Assembly: GCA_913055615.1 (NCBI GenBank)
Contig: CAJXKK010000004.1
Span: 1-64,000, forward strand
DNA length: 64,000 nucleotides
Source of the DNA: an uncultured Ectothiorhodospiraceae bacterium
GTDB taxonomy: Bacteria; Pseudomonadota; Gammaproteobacteria; XJ16; Halofilaceae
Direction: 5' to 3'
A model generated the notes under the pieces. The model made no database searches and was not told where the DNA came from. It worked only from the letters and a program-made list of their open reading frames with translations. Within the stretch, counting starts at the first letter, position 1. Each line of letters starts with the position of its first letter. The translations under genes and the position numbers were made by a program. Positions 29,142-30,625 of the stretch are shown here, piece after piece.

Positions 29142-30221
29142 TCAGAACAGTTCCGTTTGGTCCCCGCTGCGCGGTGGGCGCCGGAAGGCGTCGGCGGATA
29201 GGGTACTACGCCGTGACGGGTCGATACCGGCGCGGCGGCTGGCGACCCGGAAGCGCTTTCGGAGCAGATCCGCATATGCACCGCTGCCGCGCATGCGCTG
29301 CCCGAACGAGGCGTCGTAACAGGCGCCGCCGTGCGCATCGCGCAGGTGATTCAGGACACGTTCCGCGCGATCGGGGTAGTGGGCGCGCAGCCATTCCGTG
29401 AACAGCGGCTCCACTTCATGCGGAAGACGCAGCAGGACGTAGCCGGCCGAGCGGGCACCCGCGTCGGCCGCCGCCTGCAGCAGATACTCCAGCTCATGAT
29501 CCGTTAGCGCCGGGATGACCGGCGCGATCAGGGTCCCGACCGGAATGCCCGCTTCGTTCAACCGCTCGATCGTACGCAGCCGGCGCCCTGGCGCCGCGGC
29601 CCGGGGCTCCAGCAGGCGCTTCAGGCCGGCATCCATGCTGGTCAGACTGATCATGACCGAGACCGCGTCGTAGCGGGCGAGTTCCTGCAGGACATCGAGG
29701 TCGCGCTCGACCAGGGCCCCCTTGGTGATGATGCTGACCGGATGGCGATAGTCGGCGAGCACCTCCAGCAATCCACGCGTAACCCGGTATGAACGCTCGA
29801 TCGGCTGGTACGGATCCGTATTCGCGCCCAGCGTGATCGGCGCGGGCTCATATTTCGGGGAACGGATCTCCGCTTCGAGCAGCCGCGCGGCCTCGGGTTT
29901 GTAGAAGAGCTGCGTCTCGAACTCCTGACCGGGGGACAGGCCGTACCAGGAGTGGCTCGGACGCGCGAAGCAGTAAATGCAGCCGTGTTCGCAGCCACGA
30001 TACGGATTGATTGAGCGGTCGAAAGGTACGTCGGGTGACTGGTTCCAGGCGATCACGCTGCGCGCGCGGTCGACACCGACCGTGGTCTCCGGAGCAGGGA
30101 CCGGCTCGTCGAGTCCGCCCCAGCCGTCGTCCAGCGCCTCGGTCAGGACGGACTCGAATCGCCCGGGCGGGGCGGAGAGGGCGCCGCGGCCTTTATGCCA
30201 GGTGCGTTTCGGCATCGTCAT
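29142..30221 (-). CDS. Radical SAM protein of the PA0069/Rv2578c family
   Basis: A 359-residue radical SAM enzyme related to spore photoproduct lyase-like proteins. The iron-sulphur motif is CEHGCIYCFARPSH (about residues 75-88), and NPYRGCEHGC, LGANTDPYQP and GALVERDLDVL are family landmarks. The chemistry is not established. The start at 30221 (MTMPKRTWHKGRGA) gives the normal N-terminus; the frame upstream to 30695 is unrelated. A perfect-core LexA box sits seven bases before the start, so the gene is probably DNA-damage induced. The Pseudomonas aeruginosa homologue PA0069 is known to belong to the LexA regulon, which agrees. Confidence 0.88.
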   Translation of the reverse strand: MTMPKRTWHKGRGALSAPPGRFESVLTEALDDGWGGLDEPVPAPETTVGVDRARSVIAWNQSPDVPFDRSINPYRGCEHGCIYCFARPSHSWYGLSPGQEFETQLFYKPEAARLLEAEIRSPKYEPAPITLGANTDPYQPIERSYRVTRGLLEVLADYRHPVSIITKGALVERDLDVLQELARYDAVSVMISLTSMDAGLKRLLEPRAAAPGRRLRTIERLNEAGIPVGTLIAPVIPALTDHELEYLLQAAADAGARSAGYVLLRLPHEVEPLFTEWLRAHYPDRAERVLNHLRDAHGGACYDASFGQRMRGSGAYADLLRKRFRVASRRAGIDPSRRSTLSADAFRRPPRSGDQTELF

Positions 30222-30228
30222 GATGAGA

Positions 30229-30244
30229 CTGTACAAAAATACAG
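30229..30244 (-). promoter_or_regulatory. LexA (SOS) box of the radical SAM gene
   Basis: CTGTACAAAAATACAG on the plus strand: the exact CTGT-N8-ACAG core with an all-A/T centre apart from one C. It lies seven bases upstream of the start codon, where bound LexA would block transcription or initiation. It is inferred by consensus only. Confidence 0.7.
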
Positions 30245-30298
30245 CTCGCCATGCCAGCGATGGCGCGTTCCGGCGATTGCCAGCGCGCCGCGCAGCGG

Positions 30299-30625
30299 TC
30301 AGCGCGTGACGCCGGCGAATCGTTCCGGGGCGGGCCCGAGGAGTTCCGGTAGGGCGACCAGCGTCGCGGTCCCGCCCAGCGCGCCCAGTGCCAGCGCCAG
30401 CAGGATCGGTGCGATCGGCGTACGTGGGGCGCGCCAGCAGGCGAGCCCGGCGACCACCGCGAGCATAACGCTCACGATCACAGGCGGCTGTAGGGCGAGC
30501 AGGCGCTCCAGGGCCGGGCGCCCGGCCAGACCGATGGCATCGGCCTCGTAAGGGATGATGGTCGCGGCCAGCGTTATCAGGGTGAGGCCCGACGCAAGCA
30601 GGGGGAGAGCGGCGCGACGACTCAT
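30299..30625 (-). CDS. Small membrane protein, function unknown
   Basis: 108 residues with three hydrophobic segments: ALPLLASGLTLITLAATIIP, PVIVSVMLAVVAGLACW and PILLALALGALGGTATLVAL. It begins MSRRAA, giving a positive-inside N-terminus. It resembles the N-terminal membrane part of several endonuclease/phosphatase-like proteins but carries no catalytic domain. It lies upstream of the radical SAM gene on the same strand, 77 bp before its start, so the LexA box would separate their control. Confidence 0.55.
   Translation of the reverse strand: MSRRAALPLLASGLTLITLAATIIPYEADAIGLAGRPALERLLALQPPVIVSVMLAVVAGLACWRAPRTPIAPILLALALGALGGTATLVALPELLGPAPERFAGVTR

Follow-up and report, generated by a model that had tools for sequence, protein, structure and literature searches.

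LexA control of radical SAM genes has been described in several bacterial groups. According to PMC3323433, splB genes, which are treated there as photoreactivation or spore photoproduct lyase (SPL) genes, carry LexA sites in alpha- and betaproteobacteria, and such sites were "not observed" in gammaproteobacteria. PMC8565304 places SplB/COG1533 under LexA in Bacteroidetes and calls it SOS-regulated in several species, and SplB-like genes share operons with genes for ImuB-C domains (PMC3765255). For a Streptomyces radical SAM gene, which may or may not be of the PA0069 family, LexA binding in ChIP and a 20-fold induction by mitomycin are reported (PMC9380542). SOS control of splB/COG1533-type genes is already published for alphaproteobacteria, betaproteobacteria and Bacteroidetes, and the link is largely known.

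The gene examined here resembles those systems in being an SPL-like radical SAM gene with its lineage's own LexA box upstream, a pattern that holds across differing LexA motifs (PMC3323433 and PMC8565304). It differs from the splB genes of PMC3323433 in being gammaproteobacterial and in its assignment to the PA0069 family, to which those splB genes may also belong. We found no literature that names PA0069 together with LexA, and the papers retrieved for PA0069 alone include, by title, no functional or SOS study. PA0069 is reportedly among the 15 genes of the Pseudomonas aeruginosa LexA regulon of Cirz et al. 2006. That study is cited in PMC13114513 and PMC8944484, and the former counts 15 LexA genes in P. 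aeruginosa, recA and recN included. To this background we add the breadth and patchiness of the control in gammaproteobacteria, a very small LexA regulon in one genus, and the lack of a conserved fourth cysteine in the enzyme family.

The PA0069-family gene lies in a window of 64,000 nucleotides, which is the whole stretch of DNA analyzed (Table 1). Upstream of it is a putative LexA box that reads CTGTACAAAAATACAG on the forward strand and CTGTATTTTTGTACAG on the gene strand (30244-30229), separated by 7 nt from the ATG at 30221-30219. The preliminary description had reported a CTGT-N8-ACAG sequence with an A-rich center seven bases before the start codon, and this is confirmed. No other CTGT-N8-ACAG occurs in the window. 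By itself, the bare pattern is weak evidence: 0.28 sites are expected per window by chance, at least one site occurred in 23 of 100 shuffles, and across the genome of origin the pattern is not enriched (12 sites versus 17 for a reversed-pattern control). With an A/T-rich center, the expectation from base composition falls to about 0.002 per window and 0.08 per genome. We consider the box significant because its center is A/T in DNA of 66.5% G+C and because it matches the operator of the genome's own lexA gene, sharing 14 of 16 positions with the box directly before lexA (CTGTACGGAAATACAG). Scored with a matrix built from 47 lexA-promoter sites of other genera, with this genus excluded, it reaches 22.3 (control threshold, 10.1).

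Table 1. Features at the PA0069-family locus, in window coordinates.
Feature	Position	Strand	Basis or remark
LexA box CTGTATTTTTGTACAG	30229..30244	-	7 nt before start codon; pattern, matrix score, match to lexA box
PA0069-family radical SAM protein, 359 aa	29142..30221	-	NF033668, 482.4 bits; PF04055, 66.6 bits
Codons C77 to C84, CxxxCxxC [4Fe-4S] cysteines C77, C81, C84	29970..29993	-	invariant in 45/45 aligned members
Terminator-like hairpin, T-run tail overlapping LexA box	30247..30265	-	adjoins box on upstream side
Upstream ORF, 108 aa, membrane-like by eye	30299..30625	-	same strand as PA0069-family gene

Because a hairpin ends just before the 16-mer, and because the bare pattern shows no genomic enrichment, one could argue that the palindrome is a chance product of the terminator T-run of the upstream ORF and no operator at all. 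We reject this very improbable explanation on the strength of the matrix score and the lexA-box match, the presence of boxes at the same place in homologues, and the footprint in a second genome of the genus (G138), in which the exact 16-mer is retained and the hairpin, as judged by eye, is lost. The hairpin probably marks the end of the upstream ORF, for which no Pfam match was found and which is probably transcribed separately from the PA0069-family gene. We found no sigma-70-like promoter at the PA0069-family gene of the window, and a promoter-like TTGCCA-16-TATAAT lies just 5′ of the box of lexA in the same genome. With just 7 nt between box and ATG, the PA0069-family transcript may be nearly leaderless.

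The 2,998,264 bases of the genome of origin contain three exact CTGTA-N6-TACAG sites and 12 with one mismatch. Three of the one-mismatch sites are those of loci L001, L008 and L009; of the other nine, the eight that were judged (all but that of L313, a locus not centered on its site) fall mostly within ORFs. Two of the exact sites precede the PA0069-family gene and a lexA-imuA-imuB operon, where downstream of lexA (TIGR00498, 241.6 bits) come imuA (NF033429, 200 bits) and the gene for a Y-family protein (PF00817), which we take as imuB. The third is a perfect palindrome, CTGTAGTCGACTACAG (G000:C32:4963-4978, L011), before a gene that by eye encodes a MerR-like regulator; the same site occurs in G138, and it is probably the operator of the regulator itself. 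No LexA-like box was found in the 350 to 500 nt scanned upstream of recA, recN and dinB, where the best scores were −8.5, −8.3 and −0.5, respectively, against the threshold of 10.1. Among strong boxes, the genome has two LexA targets, the PA0069-family gene and the translesion operon, and weaker scattered ones are possible.

The PA0069-family gene is boxed in each of the three genomes examined from this genus. In G138 the 16-mer is identical to CTGTATTTTTGTACAG within diverged flanks, and in G236 it is the variant CTGATCTTTTATACAG. Upstream of recA no LexA-like box was found in either genome (best scores, −8.5 and −6.9 against 10.1); the recA, recN and dinB loci scanned across the three genomes are L303, L340, L341, L343 and L330. 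The lexA and PA0069 boxes of G138 are as in the genome of origin, and G138 has one more box before an integrase-like ORF (L332, G138:C5:433678), which appears to be frame-broken and is covered in part by PF13495. In G236, a LexA-like box, CTGTCTAAAAATACAG, precedes a ribonucleotide reductase gene (L333, G236:C196:34830). What is unusual here is how small the LexA regulon is: P. aeruginosa has the family's founding gene, and all nine Pseudomonas loci examined likewise carry CTGT-N8-ACAG, but its LexA regulon includes recA and recN (PMC13114513), which are unboxed in the genome of origin. We tentatively raise the possibility, which we consider rather doubtful, that the canonical LexA regulon of this genus has shrunk to the PA0069 enzyme plus the translesion operon lexA-imuA-imuB and no longer takes in recA, recN or dinB. 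PA0069 would then be the one non-polymerase repair function still under SOS control after almost all others have gone. Acting beside the ImuAB mutasome, it would represent a class of radical SAM enzymes for DNA lesions that is new and distinct from SPL.

To place the box in a wider context, we scanned 91 PA0069 loci from an even sample of 276 gammaproteobacterial genomes, in which 93 full-score family members were found (those of G056 and G074 are 5′-partial and were left out). In the matrix scan, a CTGT-type box scored above the threshold in 16 of the 91 promoters, three of them from the genus studied here, and in 1 of 1,567 control windows. Boxes before PA0069 were found in 12 of the 34 genomes whose lexA promoter carries CTGT-N8-ACAG, in 4 of the 29 whose lexA promoter was read and has no such site, and in none of the 28 whose lexA promoter was unread. 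Two further loci have sites of other kinds: the GAAC-N7-GAAC-type GAACCTATGGAGAAC in G180, where a site of this type also stands in the promoter of a second lexA, and the Xanthomonas-type TTAGTAATAATACTAA in G147, where the lexA promoter has TTAGTAGTAATACTACTAA. A recognized LexA box is absent from the remaining 73 loci. Boxes occur in none of the 16 PA0069-bearing genomes without a LexA match and in 18 of the 75 others (Fisher test, P = 0.035, with groups assigned by hand). A divergent or second lexA gene is common in gammaproteobacteria, with an alpha-like GAAC-N7-GAAC or GTTC-N7-GTTC site in its promoter (L136, L138, L180-L187, L189 and L190); in G071, a divergent lexA lies less than 2 kb upstream of PA0069.

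Because the CTGT box is found in just 16 of 91 evenly sampled loci, control in gammaproteobacteria is patchy. In addition, 38 of the 73 unboxed PA0069 genes lie close behind another ORF, compared to 2 of the 18 boxed ones (P = 0.0015, for mechanically called ORFs), and the enzyme therefore operates without SOS control in many lineages. This patchiness, together with the variety of ORFs that many homologues closely follow, fits an enzyme that is truly controlled by LexA and is not a repair enzyme, one that modifies an RNA, peptide or metabolite useful in damage stress and that was co-opted into the SOS response.

Among the named loci, which are the best-scoring 80 of 593 and hence a biased set, GTTC-N7-GTTC boxes precede 32 of 35 alphaproteobacterial genes and CTGT boxes precede 15 of 28 gammaproteobacterial genes (besides the 9 of Pseudomonas, these include 3/3 from Marinobacterium and 1 from Vibrio, with 0/4 from Rhodanobacter/Dyella). 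Four of seven betaproteobacterial genes have CTGT-N8-ACAG and two have GAAC-N4-GTTC; the latter palindromes, upstream of Nitrosomonadales/Gallionellaceae genes (L225 at −48 and L242 at −97), are possibly another LexA motif type. All eight unclassified loci are boxed, and the single Muproteobacteria locus is not. One named locus labeled Mycobacterium sp. KBS0706 (L237) has an alphaproteobacterial-type PA0069 gene with a GTTC LexA box, and the organism name is probably wrong. Control windows carried GTTC boxes in 14 of 2,942 cases and CTGT boxes in 3 of 2,942. In a sample of the phylum, 205 of 397 genomes exceed the family cut-off, and the 30 highest-scoring loci of these 205, again a biased set, all have GTTC-type boxes.

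The comparison of homologue upstream regions that had been suggested as a check thus gave a positive outcome, with each lineage's own LexA box recovered in the class sample and in the named gamma-, beta- and alphaproteobacterial loci more often than in the controls. The preliminary description had also supposed that SOS control is conserved over a long distance; the range, spanning gamma-, beta- and alphaproteobacteria, is wider than it proposed, and the conservation within gammaproteobacteria is patchy, with 73 of 91 loci unboxed. SOS control reappears often with two types of LexA motif and a single time with a third. A FastTree phylogeny of 201 proteins, on which we do not rely because only 58 of its 195 branches are starred, has 18 changes between box and no box and, within the boxed rows, 3 switches of motif between CTGT and GTTC. 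Because the regulation of PA0069 tracks the LexA motif of the host, it is hard to explain except through selection for SOS control.

The match of the protein to NF033668 covers profile positions 1 to 348 and exceeds the cut-off of 360 bits, which assigns it to the PA0069 family. Its match to the related Rv2578c radical SAM family (NF038135; 228 bits) is below the cut-off of 430; Rv2578c is not named in the main text of PMC8151990. An AlphaFold2 model built from 45 sequences (pLDDT 84.6, pTM 0.84) has SPL structures as its six best PDB matches in both search programs. The Foldseek E values for these matches range from 7e−10 to 2e−8 (TM 0.54, 15% identity), and the Z scores from 19.8 to 19.4 (best match, rmsd 3.3 over 272 aligned residues), followed by lipoyl synthase at Z 15.1. 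The predicted resemblance to SPL is moderate, and SPL (PDB 4fhc and 4rh0) is the closest solved fold.

The cluster cysteines C77, C81 and C84 are the only conserved cysteines among the 45 sequences. Y83, immediately before the third of them, and A86-R87-P88 are invariant in 45/45. In SPL, a tyrosine before the third cysteine is a feature of the motif, and C140 is the hydrogen donor. Residues C140 and Y98 of SPL are named in PDB titles. The PA0069 family shares with SPL the CxxxCxxC motif and the tyrosine, but identity is only about 15% and the alignment has no fourth conserved cysteine: the best additional columns hold 21, 18, 14 and 10 cysteines of 45, the first of them near the C terminus. 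Because of this lack, we suggest that an SPL-like fold is combined with a probably different final hydrogen-transfer step.

The predicted fold, the CxxxCxxC motif with its invariant tyrosine, and the published annotation of splB would also fit a true SPL-type lyase that repairs 5-thyminyl-5,6-dihydrothymine, as PMC3323433 proposes for splB. The missing conserved fourth cysteine argues against such simple SPL chemistry. No SPL family appears among the NCBIfam and Pfam matches of the protein up to E = 1, which would also speak against it if these libraries hold an SPL model. Moreover, the spore photoproduct forms in dry spores, which bacteria of this kind are not known to produce. We therefore regard a true SPL as improbable. 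The lack of a counterpart to the SPL donor cysteine, and the presence of other radical SAM folds next in rank at Z 15, would equally suit the co-opted non-repair enzyme considered above. Against it stand the clear lead of SPL among the structural matches, the recurrence of control under different LexA motif types, and the position of the gene as one of two strong LexA targets here, the other being a translesion operon. On balance, we consider a non-repair enzyme unlikely, less so than a true SPL.

With fair confidence, we favor a LexA-repressed radical SAM enzyme of SPL fold that acts on damaged DNA by chemistry unlike that of SPL. Because the LexA box has equivalents in relatives and the fold is like that of a repair enzyme, the enzyme probably helps cells handle damaged DNA; it is the regulation and the fold together that point to repair. 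We propose that the LexA operator covers the promoter and start region of the radical SAM gene, which would have its own promoter region, and that in undamaged cells LexA bound there would block transcription. Upon damage, RecA filaments would induce LexA self-cleavage, and the gene would be derepressed at the same time as the mutasome operon lexA-imuA-imuB. Its product, a [4Fe-4S] radical SAM enzyme with a predicted SPL fold, would most likely direct the 5′-deoxyadenosyl radical at a DNA base that is damaged or crosslinked, and the lesion would be reversed or modified without the hydrogen-donor cysteine of SPL. Given the repeated LexA control under different operators and the SPL-like fold, we suggest that PA0069, a widespread radical SAM family, is a strong candidate for an unrecognized DNA-damage enzyme. 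Lineages with small LexA regulons, such as the genus studied here, offer a clean setting in which to test its role.

PA0069 matches also occur in 10 phage records, none covering above 80% of the query, and in 77 plasmid records, 26 of which cover at least 80% of the query and, among those listed, are mostly large alphaproteobacterial replicons. No useful conserved neighbors of PA0069 were found in the gammaproteobacterial class sample, where the best clusters comprise 4 and 6 loci. An ORF cluster represented by RNase HII lies downstream of PA0069 in 48 alphaproteobacterial-type loci, which we count in favor of the proposed role in DNA damage. In some such loci a CcrM-like DNA methylase (PF01555) is also found downstream; coordinates for these neighbors are L200 2905-3936 and L241 5625-6836. 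A plasmid of Legionella adelaidensis carries PA0069 and a polX DNA polymerase gene in divergent orientation (L339 341-3089).
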